This document shows, piece after piece, positions 1 to 38,032 of a stretch of 38,032 nucleotides of DNA (positions within the stretch are counted from its first letter, which is position 1; the number at the start of each line of letters is the position of its first letter). The DNA comes from Nannochloropsis salina CCMP1776 (lineage: Eukaryota; Sar; Eustigmatophyceae; Eustigmatales; Monodopsidaceae), in assembly GCA_004565275.1 (NCBI GenBank), contig SDOX01000121.1, forward strand, positions 114,421 to 152,452, in the 5' to 3' direction. The notes under the pieces were generated by a model. The model was not told where the DNA came from, made no database searches, and was given only the letters and a program-made list of their open reading frames with translations. The position numbers and the translations under genes are program-made.

Positions 1-1996
1 TACCACTACGAGCTCGTGAAGCGGTGCGTCTGTTTAATTCCGCCCGTCCTCCCTCCCTCCCTCCCTCCTTCCCTCCCTCCCCCCCTCCCTCCTCTTTCTC
101 CTTCGGCTCGCCTTGTCTCTTCTTTCGAGGCCGTGCACACGTTCTAAGCATTCTCCCCCTCCTTCATTTCTCCTTCCTCCCTCCCTCCCTCCCTCCCTCC
201 CCCCCCCTCCCTCTCCAGCGCCATCTCCATGTCCCTAGACGGGCGAGAGCGGGAACGGGAGCTGGTCTCCCGCCTGCTATCTGCCCTTTACCCTTCCCTC
301 CTTTCCACCGCCGACGTGGGCAAGGGCTTCGAACGCCTCTTTGAGGTGGTGGATGATCTGCAGGTGGACGTTCCGAGGTAAGGAGAGGAAAGGGGGGAAG
401 GGAGGTGAAGGAGGGAGGGAGGGAGGGCGCACGTGTGACGCTTGTCGTCTCTTTTGCGCATCCCTTGCTTTTTTATTATGTCGTTCTTCCCCCCTCCTTC
501 TTTCCCCTTTCATCCTTGGTCCATTCCCATCCGTCTTCTCTTTGCTCCCTCTCCTTCTCGTACCTCCCTCCTCTGCATCCACATCCGTCATCCCTGCCAA
601 CCCTTTCCCCTCCTCCCCTCGCTCCCTCCCTCCCCCTCCCCCCCGGGGCCCTGCGCGCAGTGCCGTCCGAGACATCGCTACCTTCCTTGCCCGCGCCGTC
701 GTGGACGAGCTCCTCCCTCCCTCCTTCCTCTCGGACCCCTTGGTTGTGGGGCTGGGCGGGGAGATGGTCGAGCACGCCAAGCTCCTCCTCTCCCGGGACC
801 ACATGGGCGCGCGGTGCGTGCAGGATGAGAAAAGGGAGAGTGGAAAGGGTCGAGGATGCTCGTGGGGGAGGGATGAGGGTTTGTGCGCCCAACCCTGTTG
901 GCGATGATGTGGCCCAAGGCTCGGCGGTGCCCCTCCTTCCTCTTCTGCTCCCCCTGCCTGTCCCCGCTGAGCTTCTCTTCACCTCCCTCCCTCGTTCCCT
1001 CCCTCGTTCCCTCCCTCGTTCCCTCCCTCTTTCTCCCCTTCTTTCCCCCCCTCTTTCCCTCCCTCTTTCTCCCCCTCTTTCTCCCCTTCTTTCCCTCCCT
1101 CTTTCCCTCCCTCTTTCCCCCCCCTCTTTCCCTCCCTCTTTTCTCCCCCTCTTTCCCTCCTTCAGCCTCGAGCATATTTGGGGGCCGGGCGACGGTCGCA
1201 GCGTTCCCGAGATGAAAGTGGCGATCGACCTCTTGGTCCAGGTACCTCTTCCCTCCCTCCCTTCCTCCCTCCCTCCCTTCCTCCCTCCCTCCGTCCGTCT
1301 TGGCCTCCCTCCCTCATCCTCGCAACCTCTCCTTTCGTTATTGTCCTCTGCCCGATCGTGCCGTTCCTCCTTTTTTTCCCCCTTCCCTGCCCCATAGGAA
1401 TATCTCTTCTCCAGACAAGTAGAGGAGGCCGCCCGCTGCGTCCGAGGTTTGCCTTCCCTCCCTCCCTCCCTCCCTCCCTCCCTCCCTCCCTCCCTCGCAG
1501 CCTTTCCCCCCGCCTCCCTCCCCCCGCGCAGACCCCCGCCCGCCTCTATGCCGCCATCCCACCCTCCCTTTCTCCCATTTCATCAGAGCTGGCTAGCCCA
1601 TTTTTCCACCACGAGCTCGTCAAGCGGGCCGTGGCCATCGCCCTCGACAAGAAGGAGGAGGAAGACCGGCTCGCCATCTCCTCCCTCCTTGCCTTCCTCC
1701 ATGCAGAGGAGGTGTGGAGAAGGGAGGGAGGGAGAGAGGGAGGGAGGCAGGAAGGGAGGGAAGGAGGGCAAGCCCATTGGACCATTGTGTTCATGGTAGC
1801 GGCTCTTGATTGCCCAGTTTCTCACGGCTCGTCTCTCCCTCCCTCCCTCCCTCCCTCCCTGCCTTCCCCTCCGCCCGGACAGATCATCTCGGGCCATCAG
1901 ATGCGTTGTGGCTTCACGCGGCTCTACCAACTCCTCCCCGACCTGGCTCTAGACGCGCCCAACGCCGGCGCCTACCTGGGAAGCATGGTGGCGCAG
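1..1996 (+). CDS. MA3-domain protein, PDCD4-like translation regulator (partial at both ends)
   Basis: Seven exons can be traced: 1-23, 219-377, 661-813, 1166-1241, 1398-1446, 1587-1711 and 1883-1996. All have GT-AG borders and matching phases. The joined product holds the end of one MA3 domain (YHYELVKR ... DVGKGFERLFEVVDDLQVDV), a linker with LEHIWGPGDGR, and a second MA3 domain (EYLFSRQVEEAARCVREL, SPFFHHELVKRAVAIALDK, GHQMRCGFTRLYQLLPDLAL). Tandem MA3 domains with this W-G-G linker are typical of PDCD4 and plant MRF proteins, which bind the helicase eIF4A and restrain cap-dependent translation in the cytosol. The start lies left of the window. After exon 7 (ends SMVAQ) a donor GTAGGG follows, but no convincing last exon is found before the opposite-strand acyltransferase gene. 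The final helix of MA3 is therefore missing. Reading through the donor gives only a GREGG tail and a stop at 2036. Confidence 0.85.
972..1160. repeat. Degenerate CCCT/CTTT tract in an MA3-gene intron
   Basis: About 190 bases almost without purines, built from variants of CCCTCCCTCGTT and CCCTCTTT. It fills most of intron 3 of the MA3 gene up to the acceptor TTCAG at 1165. Confidence 0.85.
1453..1496. repeat. (CCCT)n run in an MA3-gene intron
   Basis: A clean tetranucleotide run of about 44 bases close to the donor of intron 5 (1447-1586). It shows that pyrimidine runs can also stand at the donor side. Confidence 0.9.
1712..1882 (+). repeat. MA3-gene intron 6: GGGA arm at donor, CCCT arm at acceptor
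   Basis: The donor GTGTGG is followed by a GGGA-rich stretch (about 1718-1771). A (CCCT)n run at about 1835-1867 leads to the acceptor GGACAG. The arms could pair over at least 30 bases, leaving a loop of about 60. Confidence 0.85.
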
Positions 1997-2139
1997 GTAG
2001 GGAGGGAGGGAGGGAGGGAGGGAGGGAGGGAGACTTGAATCGTCGGCTTTTGGTCCAGGGTCCACGTGTTCTCCTTCTCCTCTTTCCCTCCCTCCTTCTT
2101 TCTCCCCTTCCCTCCCTCCCTCCCTCCCTCCCTCCCTAC
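1997..2139. repeat. Inverted GGGA/CCCT arms between two facing splice donors
   Basis: The segment opens with a plus-strand donor GTAGGG and a (GGGA)n run to about 2032. About 75 bases of mostly unique sequence follow, then a (CCCT)n run from about 2108. It closes with the reverse complement of another GTAGGG donor at 2139. It therefore holds the start of an MA3-gene intron from the left and the start of a BAHD-gene intron from the right, with no acceptor that works for either. Confidence 0.8.
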
Positions 2140-3073: not shown

Positions 3074-4237
3074 GTCGCAGCGTGAATGGCAGTGTCCTGT
3101 TTGATTGCGAAGAAGCAACAGAAAGAGACCAATTTCATAAGTTAAAGGAAGCTAGAATTTTGCGAGCGGTCACCACGGAGAAATAAAGGTCGGGAATCAC
3201 GACGCAAAGGATATGTGAACACTACGCCATCTGGCAGTAGCTCGCCATGCATGAGAAGACAGGCAAAATTTTAGCGCCGCACCCCACAGCTCGAGCAAGA
3301 TGAAATCCAAATGTCTATGACGAGAGAGTGAAAAATGCGACCCCATCTTCAAGATTTGACCCCATCTACAGGACGCCACTGGACGTAAAGTCTGCAGTCA
3401 CCGGGAAATGAGGAATAGCAGAAAGGATGATACTCATCCCGGAAGAAAAGAGCTCTTTGAAAGCCTGTGCCGTTTTCCGTATCAAGTCTCAATCCATTGA
3501 CCAAAATATAACTATCGAAGAACACTCAATCTCAATATAAACAATGTATACAAGCTATAAATATATATTTTAAATAATTTCAGCTGCCCTAAAAGGTCCC
3601 TGCTCGGGCGTGGCCGACACGGAATCCAAATTTGAAAAACCGTTACTAGGCACACTTGCTTCCTGACTCCCGGATTACGATGACCGTACTGAGGATAATC
3701 TCACAGGACAGACCTACACGACGACAAAATCTGGAACTTGAGCCATGCAACGTCATGAGGTATCAATTCAGGAGCTCTCACGTCGATGCTCAAGCGCTTT
3801 GTTGCTTAAATTTTGAACTTCTTTGCAAGGTGTGGTCGACATGAGTGCAGAACTTCTTTGCAAGGTGTGGTCGACATGAGTGCAGGGTGAACGCTTCCAT
3901 TTTGAAACAATAGCCAAAGTCCTGAGTAAAAGTGGTAGATTATAAAGTAAATTCGAGAAAAGCCGAACAAGGAAATGGGTTAAGAGTCCCTTAATGAAAA
4001 GGTAGCGATCGTATTGATAGCTGAATTGTACTCGTCAGGGTCGAGCGAACAAAACGCCATAAATCGGCATTAGAAAGCACGTCTCCTCATATAAGCCACA
4101 TCTCATGTATCCACGCACGCATTTCGAACGTTGATCTTTCAACAGGAAATGCATCTGTGCCTTCCTGCTGACTCAGGGAAATAGATTTAAGGATAGTTTT
4201 GGGCAACATCCTCGCGAGATAGCCACGCCGGGATAAT
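3074..4237. other. Divergent intergenic region with an AT-rich patch
   Basis: No gene is seen between the BAHD start and the phosphatase start. GC is clearly lower than in the genes. Bases about 3500-3590 are AT-rich with several TATA-like stretches, and could hold core promoter elements for either gene; this is only a composition argument. A tandem duplication lies at 3815-3884. Confidence 0.6.
3815..3885. repeat. Perfect 35-bp tandem duplication
   Basis: The 35-base unit starting GAACTTCTTTGCAAGG and ending GAGTGCA is present twice, at 3815-3849 and 3850-3884, without a mismatch. The first base of a third unit follows. Complete identity in non-coding DNA suggests a recent event, or an assembly stutter. 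Confidence 0.95.
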
Positions 4238-6903: not shown

Positions 6904-9701
6904 TCACTCCACGCGGACATCGCAAAGGATGCTCACATGGTCCGAGGGCGTCTGCCAGGACGGTAACGCCGTGTCCTGGCCCGCCTCCTCCCTGGTCGGC
7001 ATGGCGCCTACCGACAGCACGGAGAAGCCCGCGCTCGAGGGATCCAATGGGGCCGGAACCTCCGACTCCAAGAAAATGTAATCCAAAGTCTCGACGAAGC
7101 CCTAATACGGACAAAAAGCGTGGAATAATGGCATCAATGGGCGGATGGAGACAGGAGATAAGATGATTTGAGCCCCTCTGCCCTTTCCCTCTATCCCCCC
7201 CGCCGTTCCCTTAACCCTCACCTGCACATAGTTCGTGAAGTCGGGCAAGCCACAGGCACTGAAAAAAGGTCGTGTCAAGCACAGTGTGGGGATCACGTCC
7301 CCGTCTGAGGCCATGCTCCCTTTCTTCTTAGAGTTCTTCTCCTTCTCTTTTTCTTCCCGCGCCTCCACGCGCGGTGTCGCGCGGCTGGGGAGGAGAGTCT
7401 CTCTCCCCCTACGCTCCTATGAGACAATGGAGACAGCATAAGGAAAGGTGGTATGGCGCGCACGCTTGCTTAGACACGACATTTTGTTTTGCCATAGTTG
7501 AACAGCACATGACGTTCGCAATGCCATTGCATGTAGGGTGCGTGCCCAGGAATACAGGGGGAGGAAGGGAAGGAGCAGAAAGGGAGGAGGAATAAGACCG
7601 TCATGCCTCTGGCCCCTGCGCTACCACTTACCCTGCCAACATCAACCGCTACAGCCTTCCCATCCCCTCCCTCCTCCCCACCCTTCTTTTCCTCTTCTGC
7701 TTCGACGACTGCCGCCGCCGCCGCCGCCTCCCCTTCCTCCTTTTCCTCCCCCTCGCCTTGCCGCTTGCCCCACCCGAAGACGTGGAGGTGCTCCCAGACC
7801 TCGTCCTCCCGGCCGATCGTCTCCCCGCGCAGGTAGCGGATCGTGGCGGTAGTGGGGGTGCTGGGAAAGGAGCGGCAGGGAAGAAGCAGGGGAGGGAAAG
7901 GGAAATCAAGAGAAGAGGATTAGAGGAGCGAAGAGGTACGCAGCGGATGCGCTCGCATCTGGCACCCTCCCTGGTCCCTTATAGTAAAGGAGGTGGACGA
8001 GCCAAGTACCCTCCTTCCTCCCGAGCTCCCTCCTTCTCCCCCTCTCTCCCTTTCTCACCTATTCAGGTCACCGCACAGGACCAGACGAGGTCGCACGCCG
8101 TACTTGTCCTCGATCTCGCCCCGCCGGGCAGTCATTTCTTTCACCAGGGTGGCCATCTGGACGAGGGAAGGGAGGGGGACAGGGAGGGAGCCAGGCAGAG
8201 ATAGCGAGAGGGAGACAATTGCCCAGTGTAAGTGCGTAGCTCGCATCGAGCCTTTGCCCGGAAAAATCAAGCAGAGATACCCCCCGATACCAGAACATAA
8301 AAGCAACATTTCTTTTTCCTCTTTCTCTTCTTCCCCCCCTTCCTACCTGCATGAGCCGGATGTGCTGCGCCATGGGATGGTAAAACAGGTGGGTATTCCC
8401 CACAAGCAGGAGACGTTCTTGCCCCTCTTCCTCCTCCTCCTGCCGTGCCGTGAGGACGCTCGTGAATCCATGTAACTGTTTCCGTCCCCTCTATCTCCGC
8501 CTCGTCCTGACTCTGCTTTCCTTTCCCTCACGCCCTTCCCCACACACACACCTCGAGACGCAAAAGCACGATCTGTCCGACCGTTGTCAGTTTTTCACAC
8601 AAAATGGCGCGAAGTGCAGGATAGCGGTCTTGGAGGGGCTAAGCAAGGAAGGAAGAACGAAAAGAAGAGAGGTATAGAGCGCAAGGCGCGTACATAATAC
8701 GAGTAGCGTGGGTAAAAATGGCCGCAGAGATGCTCGGCAGCTCATCCTTACACCCACACTAGACGTCACAGTCTTGTCCTCATGTCCATGCAGTCAGAAT
8801 GAGGGGAATGGGGCCACAGAGAAAAAAAAAATAAAGGAAAAAAAAAAGGCAGAAAGGGGAAGACGCAGAAATCATGCGAGGGAGAAGGGGGAAGAGAGGA
8901 AGCAGAACAGGGCAAACGAGGGGTAAAAGAATGAATACGAGGAAGAAAAACTCCCTAGAACCATGTAATATCGGTAAACGTTACCTTGAAAGGATTATCT
9001 TTCCTGTCGAAAGCTTCCCGCATCTCGAAGTCAAACGTGCCCAGACAGGCCAGGCGCTCCAGCCGGTAGAAGAGGGCGGCACCCTCCCGAGTATTGCCGC
9101 ATTTGGAGTGGTGGAGGCCTGGGCGTGGCGGAGAAAGACCAGGGCTCGTGAAAATGAGAGAGGGTCTTCCAGGAAAGTGGGAGTGTTCAGCCAAGGGGAG
9201 GACAGGTGGGACGGCATTCATTTGAAGCTTCCTGGCATGCCCTGATTGCTTTTACGACGATCGCCACACCCCATGACTCAATACCCGAGACTTGCGAGCA
9301 CGTTACAGTCATTCCTCAAAAACGGGCAGAGGCCTGGCTTGCGAACAGGAGGTGCGTGCATGCGGAGGCAGCACAGAGGTACTTTCTTCCCTCCCTCCCT
9401 CCCTCCCTCCCTCCCTCCCCCATCCCCCTCAACCTCCCCTCCTCCCGTCCCATATCACGTCGATGCGTCCGCGCCACCCCCGACGTCGCCGTCCTTCACA
9501 CGATCCAAGGGAAACCTTCCCTCCGACCTCTTCTGACCCTCCACATCCATCACCTCACCTCCCCCGCCTCTCCAAATCCCTCACCTTCCCATCCAGGTCG
9601 AAGAAACTCAGCTCTACCTCCGCCTCGCCCTCCACGACGCGGACATGCAGCTCGTCCATGTTTTGGGAATTGAACTGGCGCTCGAGTCGACCTTGATCTC
9701 C
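6904..9701 (-). CDS. PDE12-like endonuclease/exonuclease/phosphatase protein (part of domain missing)
   Basis: Seven exons join in phase to the stop: 9118-8985, 8638-8552, 8475-8347, 8156-8059, 7860-7632, 7416-7222 and 7101-6904. They encode 355 residues of the C-terminal part of the catalytic domain. Marks in order are EGAALFYRLERL, VGNTHLFYHPMAQHIRLMQ, RLVLCGDLNSTPTTATIRYL, SACGLPDFTNYVQ, ETLDYIFLE and PSDHVSILCDV. These match 2',5'-phosphodiesterase 12 and the CCR4 family, metal-dependent RNases that trim oligo(A) or 2'-5' RNA; human PDE12 acts in mitochondria. An exon at 9701-9585 (RLERQFNSQNMDEL ... ELSFFDLDGK) fits the N-terminal region, but its link is inferred. The blocks with the catalytic Asn (YNILAD) and Glu (LQEV) should lie between 9585 and 9118. 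They are not there; a GGGA run fills that intron. Exon 7860-7632 also carries a long Glu/Ala-rich insert. The 5' end of the gene is unresolved. Confidence 0.8.
9388..9420. repeat. (CCCT)n run inside the PDE12-like gene
   Basis: A clean tetranucleotide run, GGGA in the sense of the minus-strand gene. It sits in the intron where conserved catalytic exons are expected but absent. Confidence 0.9.
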
Positions 9702-11159: not shown

Positions 11160-13768
11160 ATGGAAAGACCCACAAGTTTGAGCGAGGGAAGTTGTAATTT
11201 TCCCGTCCTCTCCTCACACCACCCATTTCCCCTCTTCGATAAACCTCCGTCTCTGACGTCTTCAGGCAAAGTAAGAGATGTCTATACCACCGCAGACTCC
11301 CTCCTTCTCATTTCCACGGACCGCCAAAGCGCATTCGACCGCAACCTTGCCTCGATCCCCTTCAAAGGTCAAGTGTTGAACTTAACCTCCCAATGGTACG
11401 GCCTCAGACAAGCGAAGAGGGAGGCCATCGACACCTTGCTTTTCACTTTCCTGCGTCCTCCCCTCAGCCGTGTTCTCTCGCCATTTTCCAATCCCAACTC
11501 CTTGTTCACCGCTGTTCGCTCCTCACAAAGACTTCTCCCCTCCCTCTTCCCCTCCCTTCCTCAGGTGGTTCGAGAAGAGTAAAGATCTGGTGCCCAACCA
11601 CATCCTTGCGGTTCCTCACCCAAACGCCTGCATCGGGAAGAAATGCACGGTGTTTCCCGTCGAATTCGTCATGCGCGGGTGAGGGTGCCGCGCCAACTCT
11701 TCCTTTCCCCAGTTGCTCCTTCCCTCCCTCCCTTTCCTCGCTCTTTCCCCTCCTCTCTTCTTTTTCACACCCAAGGCGAGCGTGTCGTTCGCTCGTATGC
11801 TTCTGATTACCAATCCTCTCATTCTTTATGGCTATTGCACGCAAAACACGCCCATCTTGTCCCCTCTCTCCCTCCCCCTCCCCTCCTCCCTCCCCAGCTA
11901 CATCACGGGGTCGACCGACACCTCCCTCTGGACCAATTACAAGAAGGGCGTGCGTCAGTATTGCGGTCATGCCCTGCCCGAGGGCTTGAAGAAGAACCAA
12001 CAACTCGGTGCGGACCGCCGGAGGGAGGGAGGGAGGGAAGGGGTAGGGAGGGAGAGCGAAGACATGTTAGGACGAGACGTGTGGAATCACAACAAGTACG
12101 ACAGAGGGCGTCACAGCGAATATTTTCGCCTTATCTTCAATTCCCTTTCCCTCCCCCCCTCTTTCCTCCTCCCTTCCTCCCCCCCTCCCTCCCTCCCTCC
12201 CTAGCCAACAACCTCCTCACCCCCACCACCAAGGACGCCGCCCACGACGAGCTCATTTCGGCCGAAGAGATCGTATCCTCGAGACGGATGTCCCAAGAGG
12301 ATTGGGAGGTAGGCTCTCTGCGGACATGGCTAGGAGGGCAGGAATAGGGGCCCACTCTGCGGGAGCCCTCTAAGTGTAGGGGAAGGCGGGCGGGAGGAAG
12401 GGACGAAGGGTAAAGACCGCTGCTGCTTGGAAAAGACCCTCACCCTCCCTCTTTCCCTCCCTCCCTTCCTTCCTTCCTTCCAGCTCTGCGCTTCCTACGC
12501 GCATGCCCTCTTTGCCTTTGGGCAGAAGGTTGCCTCCGCGCGAGGACTCATTCTGGTCGACACCAAGTACGAGTTCGGCAAGGTACCCACCTCCCCTCCC
12601 TCCCTCCCTCCCTCCCTCCCTCCCTCCTTCCTTCCTTCCTCCACCTTTTACCAGATTTCAGTCCAGCACGGACGCTCGAGTCGCCTGCGTCCCGTCCCCA
12701 CCCTGTTCTTTCCCCCCTCCTCCCTTTCCCTTCCTCCGCCCCCTGCCAGACGGCCGACGGGCAAGTGATCATCGTGGACGAGGTGCACACCCCGGACTCT
12801 TCCCGCTACTGGGTCGCCGAGACCTATAAGGCGCGCATGGCCCAGGTTTGAGGGAGGGAGGGAGGGAGGGAGGGAGGGAGGGACGGGAGGGGCAGGGATA
12901 GGGCGGAGTGTTTGCAGAGAACAGAAGCGCCCGTGGCAAACCGAGAAATGGCAAATACTGGAGCAGGGAGGGAGGGGGGGAAGGAGAAAGGAAGGAGGGA
13001 GGGAGAAAGGAAGGAAGAGGGACTGGTATTACAACTCCATTCATCCAGCATTTATAGACGCTCCCTCCTCCTGATTCTTTTCTCTTTTCCTTCCTGGGCC
13101 CCTCCCTCCCTCCCTCCCTCCAACCCCCTCTCCCTCTCTTATACCTAGGGTCTGGAGCCAGAGAATATTGACAAAGAATTCCTGCGCCTCTGGTTCAAGG
13201 TACCTTGTCTTTCTCCTCCCTCTTGATGTCCCTCTTCGTCTTTCCCCCTCACCCCTTCGCCTAAGCTCCCTCCCATCCTTCACGCTTGCCATTCATTAAT
13301 TATTCTTGTCCTTGCCCCAGTTCTCGCTTTCACTGTACGTCTTTTCCCTCTTTCTCCCTCCTTCTTACCCTCCTTCCCTCCCTCCCTCCCTCCCTCCCTC
13401 ACGTTCCAGGATCGTTGCGACCCGTACAAAGACGCCACCCTCCCCGAGGCGCCAGCCGAACTCGTAAACGAGCTCTCCCGTCGCTATATTATGCTCTATG
13501 AGCTCATCACGGGTGAGCGGGTCTTCCAGGCGACGTCCCTGTTTCCTTGTCACCATGCCTCTCGTAGATCTTTAGCCCGGAAAGCAGCGATTCTGGACGT
13601 ATTGAGACACTTCTATCGAGTTAGCCCCTTTCTTATACACCTGCATACATTCATCGTACCCCTTTTCTTCAAACCTTAGGATTAGATTTCGTCTTTCCCG
13701 AGGCCAGCGTGACCACCAACGACTCCTTGCGTGCCGCCATAGGTGCGTACTACGGCCGGGCCCAGTAA
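11160..13768 (+). CDS. purC: Phosphoribosylaminoimidazole-succinocarboxamide synthase (SAICAR synthetase)
   Basis: Nine exons join without a phase error: 11160-11395, 11565-11678, 11898-12007, 12205-12308, 12484-12582, 12750-12845, 13149-13199, 13410-13512 and 13680-13768. The product has 333 residues. It joins CAIR and aspartate using ATP in de novo purine synthesis. Diagnostic stretches are [110 protein letters not shown] and [12 protein letters not shown]. The form is the monofunctional one of plants, fungi and bacteria, not the animal PAICS fusion. The ATG at 11160 leaves about 35 residues before the core with no clear targeting peptide. Introns 3 and 6 have GGGA runs after the donor and CCCT runs before the acceptor. 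Confidence 0.95.
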
Positions 13769-20655: not shown

Positions 20656-22941
20656 ATGTGCACACCGGCGCAAAAGTCTAGCAAAAGCAAAGGCAGCACG
20701 AATGTATCCGGCGGACACGCAGTAGGCGAAAGGGCCCATCCCATGCTACCTCCTGATATCCCATCTTATTCCTTATCGGAGAGTCAATCTTCGTCTTCAA
20801 CCGGGTCGATTCCATCATCCACTCACAACACCAATGTACAAACTTTGGATTCACGGGTGCGGAAGTTGGCGGTACGTGTGATTAGAAGGGACTATTTAGG
20901 GTTTTCTTTCAACACCGTTCCTCCTCCCGAGAAATGTGCCATCCACATCTTCTCCGCGAACGGGCAAAATTGCCGCAATTTCTCGCAACAAATAGGAAAT
21001 CTTTATCCAACTCTCACTTCTCTCCACATTGTCGTCGCACCTGCGCACAGGGGGCTCTCCTGCAGGACGCGGGCAAGGATCCAGATAGTTTCTTCAGCAT
21101 GGCCGACGCCCTCGGCCGGCTCAGGGAGCGGCCCTTGGGAGGAGGGGAGGCAGGGGTAGAGGTGGGCACGGGGCCCGACTCGCACACGCTGGCAGAGATG
21201 CGGGCAAGGATGGTTCGGACCGCGGAATGGCTCCGGGAAATGGCGGGAGCGGCCGAGTCGTGTCTGGCGTCGCTCCAGGCGGAGGAGGTGGCGTGGAAGG
21301 CACAGGAGGAAGGGAGGGAGCCGGGAGGTCATGTCCTGGGGGAGGGAGGGATGGGGAGAGGAAGGGGAGGAGAAGGGGAGGAAGAGGAACAGGACGAGAT
21401 CACGGCCTTCGCGCACCATTCCTACGACGGAAGTTCCAGCCACCTCTTCCTCCCAGCCCACCCCACGCCCCCTCCCCACACTGGCCCAGGCGAGGGTAGG
21501 CCGGCGGGGCGGGGGAGAAATGGAGGAGGGAAGGAGGGCGGGGGAACGGGTATGGGAGGCGCTGCCCCCATAGCCCTGGTGTTGGCAGGAAAAGGCCGTC
21601 GCTTGGCGGGGCTGGTGGCCAAAGCCCGGGCTTCGGGCGGAGGAGGGCGGGGGGGAAGGCCTGGAGAAGGGGATACGGGAGCGCATTCGGCCTTTTTCAA
21701 GTCGGTGAAATTCCCGGATTTGGACCGGGCACTGGACGAAGGGGAGCAGGTGGCGGCCAAGATCTCCGAGGAGGCAGCATGGGCTTTAACCACCGTGCGG
21801 GTCCACAACGTGGTCACGGACAAGGTACGAGGGAGGGAGGGAGGGAGGGAGGGAGGGGAAGGAGCAGCGACGCGTGGGGGATGACCCTGGGGACAATATG
21901 GCCACGGAGGACAGCCCTGCGTCGAACATGTGCACGGGCGCATAGGGGATTGACGGGATTATCGCTTCTTTCGCCTATTGTCTTTTCCTACCCTCCTTCC
22001 CCTCCCTCCCTCCCTCCCTTTTACCGAACCGTGGGGCAGGTGGAGGTGACTGATTTAGACGACAGCCGGCGACGGACGTATTTTGTGGACAGGACCCACG
22101 TGGTACCTTTGCCGAGGGAGGGCGGGAGGGAGGGCGGGAGGGAGGGCCAGGACGCCTGGGCGCGGATGTTCCCCCGGGAGACGCGGGTCTTTGCCATGTA
22201 CCCTGAGACGACGGTAGGCAAGGAGGGGAGAGGGGGAAGGGGAGGGAGAGGGGGGAGGGAGGGAGGGAGGGAAGGGAGGGGGGGAAGGGAGGGAGGGAGG
22301 GAGGGAGGGCAGGGACACATGGGGTCAGGTTGTGGCCTCTTTGGCTCTCTTGGCTCTCACTTCCAGATTTTGATCAGCTTTATTCTTCACGACTGACCTG
22401 GATTCCAACCGGTCCTTCCGTCCTTTTCCCTTTCCTTCTTTCCCTCTTTCCTCTCCTTCCCTCCTTCCCTCCTTCCCTACTTCCCTCTTTCTTTTCTTTT
22501 TCTCTCTTTTGTCTTTCTTGGCATCCGCGCGCAGAGTTTCTACCCTGCGGTCGTGGTGGAGAACAGGATCAAGAGGGAAGAGGATCCCCTGGGAATGGGC
22601 GGTGGGGGAGAGGGAGGGGAAGGGGAGAGGGAGGAGGCGCGGTGTGCTCTGTGGTTTGACGAGGATGAGGACGAAGAGGGAAACCCTAGGGTGGTCCAGG
22701 TAGGGAGGAAGGAGGGAAAGAGGGAGGGAGGGAGGGAGGGAGGGAGGGAGGGAGGGAAGGGGGAAAGGAGCCACGCGCGCGCGAGCTTTTTGTGTCGCTC
22801 ACGCTCCCTTCACCTCTTCCCCCTTTTTTGGGTGCTCTCCCTTCCACCCCATTTCCTTTACCCGTGCTGGCCTCCCAGGTTCCTTTCAGGCATATCACCG
22901 CGGTTCCCGAGACCTTTGCGGGCGAGGGGTTGGATTCTTGA
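20656..22941 (+). CDS. SGF29: SGF29-like tandem Tudor protein (SAGA histone reader)
   Basis: Five exons, 20656-20871, 21051-21824, 22040-22213, 22535-22699 and 22879-22941, give 463 residues with every junction in phase 0. The C-terminal third matches the SGF29 double Tudor domain: GEQVAAKISEEAAWALTTVR, VEVTDLDDSRRRTYFVDRTH, VVPLP, then TRVFAMYPETT and SFYPAVVVENRI, CALWFDEDEDEEGNP and VPFRHITAVPE. SGF29 reads H3K4me2/3 and brings the SAGA acetyltransferase to promoters in the nucleus. The N-terminal 150 residues are Ser-rich, then helical around residues 90-150, as in the family. A Gly/Glu-rich linker of about 100 residues makes it longer than human SGF29 (293). Between the two Tudors, exon 3 encodes a [11 protein letters not shown] stretch drawn from the same purine repeat that fills the introns. 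The ATG at 20656 follows an in-frame TTG but no earlier ATG. Confidence 0.88.
21825..22039 (+). repeat. SGF29 intron 2: GGGA arm at donor, CCCT arm at acceptor
   Basis: The donor GTACGA runs at once into (GGGA)n up to about 21860. A (CCCT)n run stands at about 21995-22020, shortly before the acceptor GGGGCAG. The two arms are complementary. Introns 22214-22534 and 22700-22878 of the same gene repeat the layout, with the 3' arm weaker in the last. Confidence 0.85.
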
Positions 22942-23623: not shown

Positions 23624-25446
23624 CTATCCCGCATTCCCTCTCTCATTCAGCTTCGGTCTTGGATGGTGTTGACTGTGGGTGCTTGCACTCCTTTTTTCTC
23701 CTGGAAAGCAATCTCCACGGCGCTTTGCGTCTTGTGTGGAGGGAGGGGAGGAGGGAGGGAGGGAGGGAGGGAGGGAGGGAGGAAAAGGGAAGTAGAAAAA
23801 ATGATTGAACTCCTCGAGGACATGGCCGTCGCTCTTTCAGTAAAGAAAGAGGACCTGTGGTACGCACCCACATTAAATAAAGAAACAAACCCTAAAAAAC
23901 GTTTCGTCCGAGAACCAACGGCAACACGTGCCTTGGAAAAGCAACTCCGTGGTACCAACGCCCATTCCCTCCCACCGGAAAAACAGCAAAGGCACAGAAA
24001 TGCTCGGTAGACAAGGGCCCCAGCAAAGTAAGACGCTTTATTCTCGTACCTGCATACAGCCTTGGACAGTGCAGAAAGTGATATGGGCCACGTGCCGGAG
24101 GATCCGCGCGCCTTCCCGAAGGTCCTTGACGCATATCGAGGCCAGCGAGCAGATGCACGCCAGACACTGCATTGCATTGCTGCACCTGACTGAATAAGGC
24201 GAAAATCGTCATGTGGAATTGAGAAGGTTGGCGCGTTGATGTGGGATATCCACACAGACCGCGTAGGGTTCACTGGTGGAGGGCTCCGGGGGGCTCGCGC
24301 TGGATGGAATGGGTCACGTCTGATCACCCTTGACTCACGGCGACATGTCTACAAAGCCGAAACCCCAAGTTCGTACACCATCGACACGCCACACTCCCGC
24401 ATCCTTTCCCCTCACGGCCCATTCCATGGTCTGAGGACGCTGGGGGACCTCAAAACGCCCAAGAGTGGGGACTGACAGATCGGCTCCACTTCATACTTAG
24501 ACGCACAAGTACTTACTGATCTGGTAGTCCATAGGGTCGGGGTGAATGCGGTACTTGTCCATCAAGTAGTTCCGGGTGGCGGAGACGGCGCAGGTAAAGC
24601 AACAGGTGGCCTCCAGGCACAGACACATAGAGGGACAAGTACTCTCGCCCACCTCCCCGGCGCGAAACCCGCACAGGGGGTAGTACCTGTGCGGAAAGCA
24701 TGCACAAGGGTCGCGAGAAGTTGTGAGAAAGATACAGGGGATCCACGTCGACTCGTATCAGCTAGCAGAGGGCTTGACTGAAATGAAAAGGTGTCTTCAT
24801 CTGCGGTAGGAAAGGATCGCTCCCGAGCCCCCATCACACGCGACAACAGACATAAAATATCGCATGCGGTAATAGAGTCTAAATATGTCTAAAATCATAC
24901 TCCATATGGATGGAGTGAAGCCATTGAGCTTGCTTGTTGACAGATTGGACTCGAGATAACCTCCCGCCTCCTTACCCCTGACAGCACTTATATTCGTCCA
25001 TGTTCCCCTCCAATGCCCGGTGCCGGTTGACGCAGGCCACAGGGAGAGGACAAACGAGAGATGCAAGGCAGCAGCATGGATCCGCGATGCACGTTTTGCT
25101 CATTGGAACCTTGAAGGTGTAGGGATTGTCCGACCTCGGATACCCGCTGTAAGTCGATACAAAATCAATTACATATACATGGAGTAGTACTACAAAGAAG
25201 GCCTTCAGGAAAAAACATTAGGCTGTTTGATGGTTACGTCGCGCGGACTTGTCGAGAAGCAGCATACAACCCCAGAGAACACCACACAGGTACTTACGCG
25301 ATGACATCGTCCGGGAAACAGAGGAAACAAATGGACATCGGGCACGAATAAGTCCAGGGACCCTTCAAAGCCTTTGCTCGGCGTCTCTGTGCAGTGTGAA
25401 TGGATGCGGCATGCGCACGTTGTGAGTGTATTTTAATACAGCGCAT
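23624..25446 (-). CDS. Cysteine-rich conserved protein, function unknown
   Basis: Four exons join in phase: 25446-25298, 25146-24976, 24686-24517 and 24189-24050. A fifth at 23833-23624 is only tentative. Visible blocks are CPMSICFLCFPDDVIAGYPR, YTFKVPMSKTCIADPCCCLA, SLVCPLPVACVNRHRALEGN, YYPLCGFRAGEV, CPSMCLCLEATCCFTCAVSA, TRNYLMDKYRIHPDPMDYQI and IRCSNAMQCLACICSLASIC. Spaced Cys pairs around hydrophobic stretches suggest a membrane-linked, metal- or disulfide-stabilised protein. I recall similar SATRxYxMDxYxxxxDPxDxxxIRxxN proteins in heterokonts and amoebae without a known role; that likeness is from memory and unchecked. The ATG at 25446 keeps the phase, but an acceptor at about 25387 could replace it with an upstream exon. 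The tentative last exon reads SDGHVLEEFNHFFYFPF and then a Pro/Ser/Leu repeat, so the true end is open. Confidence 0.65.
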
Positions 25447-26077: not shown

Positions 26078-27160
26078 ATGACACAGCACATGAATCAAGC
26101 GTCGCCACCAACAAGCCTTGATGCCATAGCTGCGGTTCGGTACGTCTTCATTGGTCTTGTTTGTGCCTTTTCCTCTTCGTGACACCTCCCATCCTTCTTC
26201 CTTCGCGCCCCCTCCGGGCAGGTACTACGTGGATCGCATCGTTTCGAGCATCGACGGGATGAAAGTGCTCTTGCTGGACACGGAGACTACCCAGATAATT
26301 TCCACGGTCTATTCGCAGGTAGAGGAACCGGAAAATGGGGTCTTATGCGGGGGGGAAGAGATAGGGGCAGGAGGAGAAGATAGGCAAGCGACAATGAGAT
26401 GCGTGTGGCACGCGCTTTGCCCGTGAGCCGATGGTTTCAATCAAGTCATCCTCGCTACATGGACACATGCCTTTGCTTCTGTCCATTTTTGCCGACCCCC
26501 CCAATCATGCCGGGAGGCGTGGGCCTGTGCTGGCTCGGCCGCTTCCCTCCCGACCGTAGCGGGTGTCGTCCCCGCCCCTCCCCCCGTGCTCCTTGCACGA
26601 TACAGCTCGGAGGCTTGCCTGGCGTCTCTCCATTTATGCCTCGACATCTCACGGATACAACCCCTTTTCTCCTTCCCAAGACCACCGTCCTCGAGCGGGA
26701 AGTCTACCTGGTGGAACGCCTCAGTCCGGCGACCAAGCACGAGCCTATGACGCACTTGCGGGCCGTGTGCTTCCTCCGTCCTACGGGTAGGGAGGGAGGG
26801 AGGGAGGGAGGGAGGGAGGGAGNNNNNNNNNNNNNNNNNNNNNNNNNNNNNNNNNNNNNNNNNNNNNNNNNNNNNNNNNNNNNNNNNNNNNNNNNNNNNN
26901 NNNNNNNNNNNNNNNNNNNNNNCTCCCTCCCTCCCTCCCTCCCTCCCTCGCCTTCCCCGTCCTCTCAGGGCGGGCCTCAGATCTTGCTGGGCTGCAGCTC
27001 GGTCCACAATTCCACCTCTTTCCTGGAAGAGGTACGGAAACACTTCACTCGGGAGGCCTACCCTTCCTCCTCCCCGTCCTCCTTCCCTCCCTCCCGCGTC
27101 CAGGCGGGCCCCGGGCACGGAGAGGCGATGCCACGGCGGTCATCGCACGTCCTTGCTTGA
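26078..27160 (+). CDS. VPS45: VPS45, Sec1/Munc18-type vesicle fusion regulator (middle lost in gap)
   Basis: Exons 26078-26139, 26222-26318 and 26681-26786 give the family N-terminus: AVRYYVDRIVSSIDGMKVLL, LDTETTQIISTVYSQ, VLEREVYLVERL and MTHLRAVCFLRPT. After the gap, the exon from 26969 gives the family C-terminus, PQILLGCSSVHNSTSFLEEV, then a Ser/Pro tail to a stop at 27158. VPS45 binds Tlg2/syntaxin-16-type SNAREs and acts in traffic from Golgi to endosome or vacuole. About 85 N-terminal and 64 C-terminal residues are visible out of an expected 550-600. The rest, including most of the SNARE-binding domain, must lie in the stretch shown as 100 N. The ATG at 26078 is preferred over one at 25994, since it leaves the short N-terminus usual for the family. 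Confidence 0.9.
26823..26922. other. Assembly gap of 100 N
   Basis: Exactly 100 N, bounded on the left by (GGGA)n from a VPS45 donor and on the right by (CCCT)n ahead of a VPS45 acceptor. The round length suggests a placeholder of unknown true size. The missing 400-450 residues of VPS45 plus introns imply well over 1.2 kb. Confidence 0.95.
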
Positions 27161-31000: not shown

Positions 31001-33617
31001 GTGTGATCTGCACGACTTGGCCGGCTTTTTGACAGGCCGAGACGGCGGTGTTGAAAGAGTACAGGTCGGGACGGATGCCTTGCTTGACCCGCATGTCCTC
31101 CACCAGCTTGACCGCCGCCTTCCACTCCCCGCCCGCGTCGCAGGCCTTGATAGCGAGGTTATAAACCACGTTGTTCAACAACCCGCCCTCCCTCCCGCCC
31201 TCCTTCCCGCCCTCCTTCCCGCCCTCCTTCCTGCCTTTCTTCCGGTCTCCTTTCAAAGACTCCACCACCTCCAGGCTCTGGCGCCATTGCCCTTGGCTCG
31301 CCAACGCCTTCAAAATCCACTCGATAAAATGCGCATCCGGACTCACTCCTACCTGTTTCATTCCCTCCAAAATTTCCACCACCCGCGGCCAGTCTCGGGC
31401 GCGCAAGCAGGCGTTCATGACCGCCTCGTAGGACGCCAGGGTCGGGGGATAGCCCGACGCCTCCATCTCCTGGAGCAGGGACAAGACTTGCTCCCACTCG
31501 CCCACGCGTTGGCAGGCGGCAATGGCTGCTTGGAAAGAGTAGTAGTCCGGCCGTAATTTCTCGCCTTTCAGTTCGTGGAGGAGGTCCAAGGCCAGCCGCC
31601 AATCGCCCCCCGCCGCGCAGGCATGGATGGCCGTGTTGAAGACCAGGAGAAGGGTGGAGGAACAGGGCACCGAGGCCCCCGTCCCTCCCTCTTGGGCTTG
31701 GCTCAAGGGGAGGCGGCGCAAGGCGGAGATTTGACTGGCCAGGGTCTGGGAGGGTCGGCGCGTGGGGGAGGTGGCCAAGACCCGGACCAGCTCGTCGAAA
31801 AACACCGACTCGGGACGGCGCCCATGCCCGGCCATGTGTTTGAGGAGCATGGGCAGTGCGTCCCAGCGTTCTTGCTCAAAGCACGTGGCGAAGGCGAGGG
31901 AATAGAGTTCCCTGGAAGGGGTTCGCCTTTCCTGCCGCCTCCCGGGGTCCGGGCCATGCCCGTAGTCGGCCAGGTCCTTGTCGAGCAAGCTGTCCCGCAG
32001 GTCCAGGAGGGAGAAGACCCGCTCGATGTCCCCCGCCTGTCGACAGGCGGACATGGCGCCGCGGAAGGCGGCTTCGCTGGCTTCCATTGGAAGGGGAATG
32101 CTTCCCGTGGCACCCGCCCCCACGTGGTGGGCCAACCCAGTGCTGGAGCTCAGGCTCCCGCTGCTGCTCGCGCCAGCGCCCCCACTGCCGTAATTTGCAA
32201 GAGCGCCGGGGGCAGTGGTGTCCAGTCCGGGAGAGGAGTACGGACGAGAAGAGGACAAAGCAGCAGGTCCAGAAGGAGGGGAGGACGACAGCGTCATGGT
32301 CGAGGCGGCCGCCCCATCGAGGGGGACGCGGACGTGCCTGAGAAAGCCTTCCTGGTCCATGGCTTCCAGGTGTCGAAAGGCTTCCGCCCACTGCCCCTCT
32401 GGGACGCAGGCCTCCACCGCCTTGACGTAGACATCGGCCGTTAACTTGCCCGCCCGCCGCGCGAGGTCCAGCATGGCCTTCGCTTCCTGCCAGCGACCCT
32501 CCCGGACCAAATCGCCCATCACCAGGTGGATAAGACGTTCCTCTACGTCCAAACCCTGCGCGATCATCCGCTCCAGCACCCGCAGCATCTCTCCATACTC
32601 TCTCGAGGCCAAGGTAGAGTGGACGGCCGTGGCGTACGCCCCTCCCCGGTTCCCTCCCCCTGTCCCTGCCTCCTCCATCTCCGTCAAGAGAGCCAGGACC
32701 CGTTCGGTTTGCCCCGCCCGGTGACAGGCGGCCATGACCACGGCGAATGTCGGTGTTTCCACGGCCAATCCGTCCGTGTGCCGCATTGTCGATAAAAGGG
32801 ACACCGCGACCGACCATCGACCTTTGCGGGCGCAGGTGTCGATCGCCGTCGCGTAGCAAGTCTCGTCCGGGAGAGGACCGCGTTCGCGCATTTTTTCGAT
32901 GATCCAGGCGGCTTTGTCGGGCTGGTGCAGGCGCGAGCAGGCCGTCAAGGCGCCGCGACACATAGTGGCATCCAAGGGTCCGGTGATCTCTTCCACCGTA
33001 CGCTCCAAGTTGCGAAGCTGCGTTACGTCTTCCAGATCTCCCACAGGCCACTGACTTTGCCCCGCTCCTCCCACCCCGCCCCGCTGGCGCCCCTCCGAAG
33101 CCTCCCGCCATCGCCGATGGCCCCATCCCTCCTGTCGCTGATGCCGATGAGACGGATGCGGGGGCTGCTTGTGGTGGGAGGGAAGGACATGCTGCTCCTG
33201 GCCCTGGCCTCCATCTCTACGACCCGTGCCCATGCTGTCGTCATCGCTACCGCTGGTGCGCTTCCTGTCTGTCACTTTCCTCTTACTGCTACTATTGCTA
33301 TCCTTCCTGCTGCTGCTACTGCTACTCCCCGACCCGGCGCCCTCCCCCGAGGTCAACGCGGAGAAGGCAAGCGGTCCTCCATCTGCTACCAGTCTATACG
33401 AATATGTTTTCTGACCCAAATAATAATGCCGTGAGGCATGGAAGAAGAAGGCCGTCACCCGACTTCCCTCCAGGAGATTGGCTCCGCTCCAGGACGGGTG
33501 AGGCTTGAAAGAAAAGGCCGCTGTCTGGTTTCTTATTCTATTTCGACCACAGCTCCATTCCAGATAGCCTATCAATCCTATTAGAAGCCAGCGAACTCTC
33601 TTACAGGTGTTTCTCAT
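28091..33617 (-). CDS. Very large pentatricopeptide repeat (PPR) protein
   Basis: Two long exons, 33617-30750 and 30334-28091, join in phase 0 (AGRASQ then LFTKMVIKICAKAGEWK), giving about 1,703 residues. The donor CAG|GTAAGG and the acceptor after a C-rich tract are both strong. Many 35-residue helical-pair repeats are visible, for example YNTALKACVVGRRWREAVML, YRTAMNACIEGGEARRALKI, YNVVLKACAEGHQPDMAWVL, YTTVMNAWVEAGECQRAIQT and FNTAVSACQKAGQVVQITRL. PPR proteins bind organelle RNA base by base and control its processing, stability or translation in plastid or mitochondrion. No DYW, SMR or other C-terminal catalytic domain is seen. The N-terminus from the ATG at 33617 has a hydrophobic stretch (VRWLLIGLIGYLEW) and then NQTAAFSF, which could be a bipartite heterokont plastid signal; this is weak. 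Ser-, Gly- and Glu-rich inserts break the repeat array. Confidence 0.88.
31182..31240 (-). repeat. Exonic GGGA-type repeat in the PPR gene
   Basis: Within exon 1 of the PPR gene, a degenerate purine repeat is translated as [17 protein letters not shown] between two PPR motifs. It keeps the frame, so it is tolerated as a linker. Confidence 0.8.
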
Positions 33618-34465: not shown

Positions 34466-36087
34466 ATGAGTGCTCCAGCGGCCACAGATGACGCGAAGTC
34501 CACCCCCCCAGCGTCTGCGGGCGCCGCGACAACTGCCACAACTCATGACGGGCCAGCGGGAGCGTATGAAGACCCGGAATTACTCCACAAACTTGCAGAC
34601 ACGGTGCGGCGGACAATGAAAATCCGAAACGGAGTCCTTCAAGAGACTCGTGTGGATTACTTCAAAGGTAATAAGAGGGGGGAGGGGACGAGAGAAGACA
34701 AAAGAAGAAAGGACGTGTGCTGAATCTCCCTGAGGCCACCGAAAAGTCTGTAAAAGGCATGCAAGAACAATGGTGCAGGTGCGCCGTCCATGACCTTCCC
34801 CTGCCAATTCCTTCCTTTCCAGGCACGAAACTGATCAAATACCTAACCGCGGACCCGCTGAGCAAAGCAGACGGAAAACTTCCCAGTGTAGCCTCGGAGG
34901 AGCAGGCCATCGCCATCGGCAACCTGCTGCTGCGAGCCAAGGGGTAGGGAAGGAGGGAGGGAGGGAGGGAGGGAGGGAGGGATGGGAGGGAGGGAGGGAG
35001 GGAGGGAGGGAGGGAGGGAGGGACAGCGCTTGGGAAAAAAGGCGAGGGTATCGAGGGGTCCTGGGGTCCCACGCTTTTTTCGGTGTTAGGTTGCTTACTT
35101 GAAATTTTATGCTCTCTTTGTTACGCCTCCATTATGGACGATCTAGGGAGGACGGTCAACCCAAGTACTTTATTCGCTGCGACAAAGTCAAGCCGCGCAT
35201 TCTGGAGGTGGGGAGGGAGGAAGGGTGGGGGGAAGGGAGGGAAGGAAGAAGGAAGACAGTGAGGACGGGAAGAAGGGAGGGAAGATGTGAGAAGGGGTGA
35301 TAGGTTCACGGCCGCGCAGAGTGTAGTGGTCGATAACGGGCAGGATAACGCCCCGTTATGACCTTTCTTCCCTCCCTCCCTCCCCCCCCTCCCTCCCTCC
35401 ACCCCTCCCCAGCTGACCACCAAGCAAGACTACGAGGAGCTGGGGTATTACGCCTGGATCTACGAAGGCTCTCAGACGCTGTCGAACTTCATGACCTTCC
35501 TCATCATCGCCGGTTTCCTTGCCATCACATGCTTCCCCATTTGGCCGCATTTCTTGAAGGTAGGTAGGGAGGGAGGAAGGGAAGGAGGGAGGAAGGGAGG
35601 GAGGGGGGGTGGGAAAAGGGCATGGGTGGTTTCCTTCCTTACCATCACCGACACCTCCTTCCCTTTCCTGGAATTCTTCCCCCGCCCTGCCTCCCTCCCT
35701 CCCTCCCCCCCTCCCTCCAGTCGGACAAGGACAACATCGACAAGCCTAAGGCCTACCCCTCCTACGAGGAGCTCCTGCGCGAGAGTGAGCTTGATCTAGG
35801 TGCGTTCTTCTCCCCTCACTCATTCCCTGCCCTTTCCCCCCGCCCCTACCTTTATGTGACACCCTGCTTTGTTCCCTCCCTTTCCCACCCCTCCTCTCCC
35901 ATCCCACCGGGCCCCATCCTCTGGCTTCCTATCTCATTCAGCGGGGACGGATAGTCTGAGCGATGAGGAGCGAGGCGACTCGGTCATCGATTCGTTGCTG
36001 GGGGAGGACGAGGAGGAAGAAGCAGCTGATGCGGCGCAGGACCGGAAAGCGGCGGCGACGGCGGAAGAGAAGGAGGAAGGGGGTTAA
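34466..36087 (+). CDS. SEC62: SEC62-like ER translocon protein (second membrane span not found)
   Basis: Six exons join in phase: 34466-34667, 34823-34943, 35147-35207, 35413-35559, 35721-35799 and 35942-36087, for 251 residues. Family marks are ETRVDYFKGTKLIKYL, EEQAIAIGNLLLRAKG, YFIRCDKV, then LGYYAWIYEGSQTLSNF and a membrane span, TFLIIAGFLAITCFPIWPHF. SEC62 works with SEC61 and SEC63 in post-translational import into the ER. Known SEC62 has two spans in a hairpin, with a FWFLPNL-type stretch after the second. Here exon 4 jumps straight to a charged tail (SDKDNIDKPKAYPSYEELLR and an acidic end). The intron between them (35560-35720) has a GGGA arm and a CCCT arm and no coding stretch for a second span. 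Loss of an exon from the assembly is likelier than a one-span protein. Confidence 0.82.
34952..35022. repeat. (GGGA)n run at the start of SEC62 intron 2
   Basis: Some 70 bases of nearly pure GGGA begin right after the donor of the exon ending at 34943, broken once by a GAT near 34981. This is the longest sense-strand G run next to a donor in the window. Confidence 0.9.
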
Positions 36088-36868
36088 AGGGTGGGATGGG
36101 GATGCGGGGGGGGTTCCGTACACAGACTCTGCGGAGGGCGGGTCCACGTATGGACGTGAGGTAGGAGGGGAGAGACTTCTGCACAGGGATGAGAAAGAGA
36201 AGCATTGGGAGAGCATGGTCATGTGCAGGACCGAAAAGAAAACAAAAAGGAATACGGACAGCGGGGGGCGTTGGCCTTTGCACCAAAAAATCGGCAATTC
36301 CTCGCTTAATTTTTCTTGCCGACAAATTTCTTGATGTAAAATCGATTAAAAAAAATAATTTCGAAGCTTTACGTACACAGTCCTCTCGATGGCAACGAGC
36401 AAACAGAGAAAGTCACAGGGGGAGGCCGACAAGGGAGGGATGGAAGGACGAACGAAGAAGGAAGGAGAAGGACTCAAAGACTACAAGCCGCGAGACTTCA
36501 TTACCCGAAAGGTGCGCCGGGCCAAACCCTACGCAAACGAGGGCGGGGGGGAGGGCGGGAGGGAGGGCAATCACGACTCGCTCCCTCCCCTCCTTCACGC
36601 CCAAACGTCGCTATCTATCCAGGCGCCTTACCCGTCTGCATCTCGCCACCAAGATGCTTTTACGGTGCCGTGCGTGGATTCTTGGCGGGGTTTACATATG
36701 CATGGAGGGGGATGGGGCGCTGCGATGTGGGGATGTGGATTTTTGTACGGCGGTCTTTGATGTTTATTCCCTCCCTTCGCATCGCTTCTCCTGCCAACTC
36801 AGCAGTGCCCCGAGGTTTCACTCCCTCCTGACATCTTTTTCGCAATCTACCGACACAGTGTCTGCACC
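36088..36868. other. Region between SEC62 and NDUFV1
   Basis: The two genes point the same way. A plus-strand ATG at 36389 opens a Lys/Glu-rich frame (MATSKQRKSQGEADKGG ...) that shows no motif and turns into repeat translation. I see no supported gene. The NDUFV1 promoter should lie here. Confidence 0.45.
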
Positions 36869-38032
36869 ATGCTGCGTTCCAGCGGCAGTAAGCTCAAGAC
36901 AGCTTTCGGCCGCGTGGCGGGCGATATCCTTCGACGTGGCGCGGGTAAGTTGTGTAAATTTGCTCCCTGGCCGTGCATCCCGGGCTCCTACAGAGACCCC
37001 TCATTCCACGTCCCCCCTCCATCATGTTTCACTCAACCGCCCGCGTCGGGGCTTGAGAATGCGCAGATTCGAACGCGGTACAGAACCCTCTGACGCTGGT
37101 TTTGAATCCGCAAGCGTCGTGTTTAGAATATAGCCGTATGGCCTCATTTCACCTCTTTCCTACAGCATCGGCTGCCCCCCCTCCCGCAGCGCCAGCCATG
37201 ACTAAGGTCTATGGAGGCCTCAAGGACCAAGATCGTATCTTCACGAATCTGTACGGCGAGTACGACTGGCGCATTGACGGGGCGATGAAGCGAGGGGATT
37301 GGCACATGACCAAGGAAATTATGTGGCAAGGTAAGGGGGGGAGGAAGGAGAGAAGGGAAGGAAGGGGGAAAAGCATGGTTGTACGAATGGGGATGTGTAT
37401 GCATTCCTTTTCACAGTGGCAGGAGATGCTCATAAGGATACGTGTTTCTTGTCTCTGACCTTTTGCCTGTCCGCGTCGCCTTCTCTCCTCTTTCCTCCCT
37501 CCTTTCCTCCCTCTTCCCTTCTTTCCCTTCCCCCCTCCCTCCCGCCCGTCCTTTTCCCCTCATCCCCGTTCTCCCGCCTGTAGGCCCGGACTGGATCGTC
37601 GAGGAGATGAAGAAGTCAGGGCTCCGAGGAAGGGGTGGCGCCGGCTTTCCCTCCGGCCTCAAGTGGTCCTTTATGCCGAAAAAGGTGGGTCCCTCCCCTC
37701 CCTCCCGCCCTCCCTCCCTCCCGCCCTCCCTCCTTCCCGCCCTCCCTTTCTGGGTCGCCTTCTCGCCCATCCTGACCGAGTCTCTGGCCTCTTCCTCCGG
37801 CGCCTCTCCCGCCCTCTCCCTTCCCTCCTATCCCTTCCCCTCCCTCCCTTCCCTCCTCCATCCTTCCTCCTCTCCTGCATCTCCCAGCCGCGAGTGGGCT
37901 GACTGGGAAGATCATGGGCGGAGAGCGGCTTGACGTTACCTTATGTCCATCTTCTCAAGATTGCGCGCGGGGGGAGCTGGGCCTCTCCAGCGGATTCTGG
38001 GAGGGAGGGGGGGAGGAGGTAGGGAGGGAGGG
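36869..38032 (+). CDS. NDUFV1: NADH dehydrogenase flavoprotein 1, 51 kDa subunit of complex I (5' part)
   Basis: Three exons are present, 36869-36944, 37166-37330 and 37584-37684; the gene runs off the window. Exon 1 ([20 protein letters not shown]) looks like a mitochondrial presequence rich in Arg, Lys and Ser. Exons 2-3 give [60 protein letters not shown] and [13 protein letters not shown]. The glycine-rich [10 protein letters not shown] belongs to the FMN site. This matrix-side subunit takes electrons from NADH in complex I. The intron from 37685 to the end starts with C/T-rich repeats and ends, inside the window, in a GGGA run; no further exon is reached. Intron 2 (37331-37583) has a purine arm at the donor and a CCCT arm near the acceptor. 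Confidence 0.93.

Follow-up and report, generated by a model that had tools for sequence, protein, structure and literature searches.

Do introns that open with tandem GGGA repeats and close with the complementary CCCT repeats hold a device that brings donor and acceptor together in the transcript, or two unrelated splicing signals that have come to be complementary? The question is raised by a stretch of 38,032 nucleotides (nt) of the eustigmatophyte alga Nannochloropsis salina CCMP1776 (assembly GCA_004565275.1, contig SDOX01000121.1, positions 114,421 to 152,452 of the forward strand), referred to below as the window, in which a first-pass annotation had described such introns in several genes. 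Here we report that, judged by sequence, the regularity is real and regional; its 3' half is ordinary and its 5' half fits a known type of enhancer. The complementarity of the two ends is striking, yet its importance is at most putative. The reading we favour, and consider probable, is that these introns carry two separate, ordinary splicing signals enlarged by microsatellite slippage, with the complementarity of the ends as a by-product.

The window forms part of a 26.5-Mb assembly of 103 contigs, and introns were predicted from sequence alone. An arm was scored strictly, as 12 nt with at most one mismatch to the tandem unit and lying no more than 80 nt from the intron end, and this definition was varied over 15 settings. 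Among 42 curated introns of the window, strict GGGA arms stood on the donor (5') side of 12 and on the acceptor (3') side of none, and strict CCCT arms on the donor side of six and the acceptor side of 19. An outside sample (250 kb from three contigs) yielded 96 introns, predicted only, of at least 80 nt and with coding flanks, of which nine had 5' GGGA, five had 3' CCCT, and none had 5' CCCT or 3' GGGA. When all 138 introns were pooled, the acceptor side gave CCCT 24 versus GGGA 0 (P = 1e-7) and the donor side GGGA 21 versus CCCT 6 (P = 0.006). Under the looser definitions 3' GGGA remained at 0/42 in 14 of the 15 settings and rose to 2/42 in one, and was found in one to three of the 96 outside introns in seven of the 15. 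The earlier statement that GGGA never precedes an acceptor is therefore correct in the strict sense (0/42 and 0/96) and admits a few exceptions under looser settings, and the statement that CCCT may stand at either end is borne out (6/42 and 19/42). That introns open with GGGA and close with CCCT is true, strictly, of nine of the 42 window introns, the other 33 being built otherwise, and of 1/96 elsewhere; the orientation rule is real, yet weaker and more regional than first claimed. The nine two-arm introns are as follows.

378..660 (+): MA3 intron, GGGA-rich from about 391, CCCT-rich to about 633
1712..1882 (+): MA3 intron, GGGA 1721-1768, CCCT 1835-1864
12008..12204 (+): SAICAR synthetase intron, GGGA 12020-12054, CCCT 12148-12202
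12846..13148 (+): SAICAR synthetase intron, GGGA 12850-12891 (also 12965-13005), CCCT 13100-13136
21825..22039 (+): SGF29 intron, GGGA 21829-21857, CCCT 21991-22019
22214..22534 (+): SGF29 intron, GGGA 22223-22315, CCCT-like 22413-22491
26765..26968 (+): VPS45-like intron, GGGA 26789-26822, CCCT 26923-26949; the nominal length includes a gap of 100 N
35208..35412 (+): SEC62 intron, GGGA 35211-35248, CCCT 35369-35409
35560..35720 (+): SEC62 intron, GGGA to 35614, CCCT 35681-35718, reaching the acceptor AG

All nine are among the 14 introns that the first-pass annotation had named; the other five (814-1165, 37331-37583, 8346-8157, 8058-7861 and the PPR intron) fall short of two strict arms and have one strict arm or looser runs.

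The bias of the ends is present where arrays are absent. In 16 array-free curated introns, GGG occurred 3.19 times per 40 nt on the donor side, 0.69 times in the middle and 0.06 times on the acceptor side (5' versus middle, P = 0.006; versus CCC in the same place, P = 0.026), and 14 of the 16 had GGG within +7..+46. The corresponding values for 34 array-free introns predicted outside the window were 0.91, 0.29 and 0.38 (P = 0.02), and in a looser set of 71 array-free introns 5' GGG again lay above the middle (P = 0.02). When only curated introns of 100 nt or more were taken, the densities were 4.0 at the 5' end versus 0.85 in the middle (P = 7e-6; versus CCC, P = 0.008). Since the gradient exists in array-free introns, the end bias does not require the arrays, which look like exaggerations of a pre-existing G-run gradient in a genome where this repeat abounds, in certain regions above all.

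Before acceptors, the bias extends to the whole assembly. As matches appear to be counted per start, forward and reverse counts of one pattern differ; splice-site words were therefore counted on a single genome strand, the one that has the word ahead of its partner in the pattern. Arrays within 30 nt before the acceptor-like word YNCAGR were CCCT in 641 cases and GGGA in 246, versus 298 and 313 for the reversed-word control (odds ratio 2.7, P = 4e-20). The rule is thus strong at the acceptor; at the donor there is a lean, which the genome-wide count (given below) leaves undecided.

How far the predicted introns can be trusted bears on all of these counts. They were called with a purpose-written hidden-Markov gene finder with a strand-symmetric non-coding model, which allows GT-AG borders only and whose splice-site matrices span only -3..+6 at the donor and -5..+1 at the acceptor; because the matrices are this short and the non-coding model is symmetric, the gene finder should not itself generate a purine-to-pyrimidine bias deeper in introns. 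The run that was kept (intron cost -8.5) called 73 introns in the window; settings that made introns cheap (841-1108 introns with tiny exons) and stricter settings, which lost known introns, were dropped. The 42 curated introns were selected from the 73 by open spliced frames together with the coordinates of the first-pass annotation, and a few exon borders were set by hand. Excluded were the partial first intron of MA3 (to 218), the intron from 1997 and the introns of unassigned models. All but one of the 42 sit in window gene models, the intron at 37685-37887 coming from the gene finder only, and all 42 have GT-AG borders, as the gene finder permits no others. There are 11 window models, ten of them with introns, and none has internal stops in the best of its three frames. 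A Pfam search covered nine of the 11, with the PPR model outside the set. The curated cut-off was passed by MA3, SAICAR synthetase, SGF29, Sec62, ribosomal L13e and histidine phosphatase, the NDUFV1 piece scored under it (27.7 versus 31.2 bits), and the PDE12 and VPS45 models had no Pfam match at 0.001. The PDE12 model is backed by PDB sequences (1.1e-20), and VPS45 has a weak PDB-sequence match only (E 0.88), so that seven of the ten intron-bearing models have domain or structure-sequence support (six through Pfam, PDE12 through PDB). No Rfam family reached threshold in the window, and the motifs tried yielded no consensus for the branch point. For orientation, the genome of N. oceanica is given in PMC3499364 as 28.7 Mb with 53.8% G+C and a mean intron of 230 bp.

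According to the reading that we favour, the G runs observed on the donor side would act as intronic splicing enhancers of the G-run type, and the long, C-rich, AG-free pyrimidine tract observed on the acceptor side would be read by U2AF or by a C-binding factor. In parts of the genome the two signals have expanded to (GGGA)n and (TCCC)n arrays, presumably by slippage. On the acceptor side, GGGA repeats would disrupt the pyrimidine tract and add an AG with every unit, which may be why they are nearly absent there; CCCT repeats on the donor side are tolerated. G tracts placed between pyrimidine tract and AG are described as silencing splicing (PMC4320613). In human, many weak U2AF65 tracts are reported to be C-rich, with upstream G-rich and C-rich enhancers compensating together and C-rich enhancers partly substituting for G-rich ones (PMC2481429). 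If such compensation between weak tract and enhancer were transferable, it would put both arms into one intron without any pairing, and would place CCCT arrays after some donors.

Several observations weigh against two separate signals as just described. The compensation is borrowed from human, where the enhancers described in PMC2481429 adjoin the tract upstream and not the donor, and in human the RNA strand is reported to carry an excess of G-quadruplex motifs at 3' splice sites as well (PMC9065059), unlike here. Within the window alone, the donor-side ratio of 12:6 is not significant (P = 0.24), and neither is donor-side GGG versus CCC in the looser set of 71 array-free introns (P = 0.19). 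After CAGGT, genome-wide, GGGA arrays numbered 210 and CCCT arrays 121, with a reversed-word control of 99:78 (P = 0.11); the genome-wide word counts thus bear out the 3' bias strongly and leave the 5' bias unsettled. The median AG-free stretch before the acceptor was 92 nt in window introns with an arm, 72 nt in those without and 34 nt in the outside sample, and since the stretch is long in the window with or without an arm, it is a regional property more than an effect of the arm. Finally, when arms were shuffled within genes, both arms were expected in 5.56 introns and were found in nine (P = 0.007), an excess at odds with fully independent signals.

Could the arrays have no role in splicing at all, being the product of a repeat-prone compartment whose orientation is due to chance or to strand-coupled mutation? 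In favour of this, the arrays are regional (38 intronic arrays of at least three units in gene-finder introns of the 38-kb window, as against 3, 3 and 4 in 100, 100 and 50 kb elsewhere), a distribution that also fails to confirm an even, genome-wide feature; they occur outside introns as well, with 32 of 78 lying outside curated introns, some in non-curated introns and others in coding exons; and twenty-base repeat matches are near-equal on the two strands of the whole assembly (4292 and 4165). A strand bias, however, would be uniform, and in the eight of nine two-arm introns measured the purine side becomes the pyrimidine side within 105-238 nt of the same intron, which argues against a uniform, strand-wide mutation bias, and orientation tracks acceptors (641:246 versus 298:313), so we hold this account to be very improbable. 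The first-pass annotation had argued against replication-strand bias from the agreement of genes on both strands; that inference is invalid, as GGGA...CCCT is its own reverse complement and its occurrence on both strands carries no information on direction. An RNA G-quadruplex, folded by the GGGA arm just past the donor and recruiting factors or blocking pairing with the acceptor side, is improbable on our estimate. Of the 42 introns, 15 have quadruplex motifs on the RNA strand within their first 100 nt and two within their last 100 nt, the numbers for the other strand being 5 and 21, and allowing quadruplexes lowers the predicted energy of the 5' 100 nt in 8/8 two-arm introns and that of the whole intron in 6/8; a mammalian parallel is described in PMC9065059 and PMC5778605. 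Against this, the quadruplex energy parameters are crude, the identical sequence would be expected of a linear G-run enhancer, and some array-free introns (those at 4510 and 20872) seem by eye to have no more than one or two GGG close to the donor, fewer than a quadruplex needs.

The proposal that the two arms, GGGA and CCCT, base-pair within the transcript and draw donor and acceptor together we consider unlikely, although part of the evidence leans its way. In the 41 introns folded (the intron with the N gap was left out), 40.8 pairs between the 5' and 3' ends were expected in the eight two-arm introns versus 13.1 in the 33 others, with predicted duplex energies between intron ends reaching -110.9 kcal/mol. 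Arms co-occur, 3' CCCT being present in 9/12 introns with 5' GGGA, 3/6 with 5' CCCT and 7/24 with neither (P = 0.02 over all 42 introns; 0.004-0.125 within genes across the 15 arm definitions; 0.017 for array-rich genes when only their 25 introns of 150 nt or more are taken), and donor-side CCCT has no such association with 3' CCCT (P 0.75-0.96). Permuting 3' ends gave P = 0.041 for duplex energy over all introns and 0.073 within genes, and zebrafish offers a precedent of repeats at opposing intron ends (PMC9198270). Yet the own 3' end was the best partner from the same gene in only 8/40 introns, with 9.0 expected by chance. For 31 neighbouring intron pairs the energies were -44.9 kcal/mol in cis, -45.3 with the 3' end of the next intron (skipping; P 0.76 versus cis) and -41.1 across the exon (P 0.44), i.e. 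the partners are about equally strong, and swapping 3' ends among introns left the number of bridged introns unchanged (28.0 versus 28/41). The lengths of the two arms show no significant correlation in two-arm introns (rho 0.40, P = 0.29, n = 9), and neither do G runs and C runs on a graded measure (rho 0.07 overall, P = 0.65; 0.24 within genes, P = 0.12), and both arms are found in just nine window introns and one elsewhere. Genome-wide, a CCCT tract 80-110 nt downstream showed no preferential link to a GGGA over a CCCT donor-side tract (116:77, against baselines of 32:16, P 0.51, and 210:121, P 0.46), in what is a weak test, because the anchor AGGT differs from AGGG by a single letter and is probably inflated near GGGA arrays. 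Mean pairing probability was 0.82 for the pyrimidine tract of two-arm introns versus 0.48 in others, and 0.74 versus 0.65 for the donor; burying the tract in this way would, if the model is right, cost ordinary splicing. The pairing that the first-pass annotation considered possible is thus predicted, and strongly, but is not specific to the own intron. Either real bridging or a compensation in which G runs offset weak tracts could explain the co-occurrence of the arms. A broader proposal, in which GGGA and CCCT were recruited in repeat-rich parts of the genome as a mass-produced bridging arm pair, or as a switch between quadruplex and duplex, and set splicing efficiency intron by intron, strikes us as distinctly unlikely.

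The remaining introns referred to in the counts, namely those with GGGA on the donor side only, six counterexamples with CCCT after the donor, and the NDUFV1-like intron, are listed here.

7861..8058 (-): PDE12-like intron, 5' strict GGGA only
22700..22878 (+): SGF29 intron, 5' GGGA only
34944..35146 (+): SEC62 intron, 5' GGGA only
1242..1397 (+): counterexample, donor-side CCCT array
1447..1586 (+): counterexample, CCCT at both ends
7417..7631 (-): counterexample, CCCT no more than 80 nt from the donor
11679..11897 (+): counterexample, CCCT at both ends
12583..12749 (+): counterexample, CCCT array 12594-12639 directly after the donor
37685..37887 (+): counterexample, CCCT at both ends, gene-finder-only intron
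37331..37583 (+): NDUFV1-like intron, 3' strict CCCT only, with looser 5' G runs

Arrays and other repeats were also seen in further settings. Related arrays lie in coding exons of SGF29 (22114-22147, encoding REGG repeats) and of the PPR gene (31182-31243, minus strand, encoding KEGG repeats), and the 3' part of an MA3-gene intron holds an array of 12-nt period (TCCCTCCCTCTT, 14.6 copies, 984-1160). The reverse order, with the CCCT array leading and the GGGA array after it, is found at 23568-23784, outside curated genes, and a perfect 35-bp tandem duplication at 3815-3885, where there is no curated gene. The 100-N gap at 26823-26922 falls inside an intron, exactly between its GGGA and CCCT arrays; a comparable gap lies on another contig (C7:38947-39128), and such repeat sites may interrupt assembly. 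GGGA/TCCC arrays are clustered on the 1.07-Mb contig C1: among the 100 twenty-base places listed, which reach to 964 kb, 37 fall in the first 8 kb, 16 at 20-421 kb and 47 at 840-964 kb. Match starts for GGGA...CCCT versus CCCT...GGGA, a tally in which long arrays weigh more, stood at 5:1 for gaps of 20-50 nt, 235:115 for 70-100, 446:808 for 130-160 and 360:439 for 300-330. This ratio was dropped as a test of orientation, because the arrangement CCCT-exon-GGGA covers like distances and the count does not discriminate. Opposed arrays 20-50 nt apart are very rare genome-wide (five starts at two places with GGGA first, one start with CCCT first), versus 115 to 808 starts at the wider gaps tried.

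These introns suggest how slippage could turn both of the usual intron-end signals into long complementary arrays, and the natural set with two arms, one arm or none allows pairing of intron ends to be weighed against G-run enhancement. They are also relevant to annotation, since repeats and assembly gaps come to lie within introns, and to deciding which introns to use for expression in these algae.

With respect to known systems, the first-pass annotation knew of no splicing aid built from one genome-wide tetranucleotide, but introns with complementary dinucleotide repeats are already described in zebrafish, where hairpins formed by repeats at opposite boundaries are reported to make splicing possible without U2AF2 (PMC9198270, citing Lin et al. 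2016, Genome Res. 26:12, which is also referenced in PMC5766209). The likeness to the zebrafish (AC)m-(GT)n introns is a simple repeat and its complement at opposing ends of one intron, seen here in 9/42; the differences are that the arms here are tetranucleotide, low-complexity purine and pyrimidine runs, that one arm coincides with the pyrimidine tract, that the preference for the own intron is missing (8/40, 9.0 expected), and that the case is known here from sequence alone. Among the literature matches listed, no paper is titled for GGGA/CCCT intron ends, which falls short of proving absence from print. Introner elements were considered: no common non-repetitive sequence was found among the introns, and of 24 matches among them at E 0.001 the 15 listed are 17-36 nt long, on both strands, and were taken for array remnants. 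Euglenid nonconventional introns have paired ends and non-GT-AG borders; all 42 introns here are GT-AG, these being the only borders the gene finder allows, the spliced frames of the window are open and most models have domain support. A C-rich polypyrimidine tract that leaves the region ahead of the acceptor free of AG is a known signal. The tract and its AG constraint are also covered in PMC4320613. Shared with it are the pyrimidine-only, AG-free stretch directly before the 3' splice site and the near-absence of purine arrays there; here the tract is tandem TCCC, very C-rich and long (AG-free medians as above). With G-run enhancers and the G-quadruplex motifs of 5' splice sites (PMC9065059, PMC2481429), these introns share G runs on the RNA strand after the donor and short length; the donor-side enrichment of GGG described for such enhancers is found here too, as a sequence-level feature, the difference being that in this alga the runs have grown into GGGA tandem arrays.

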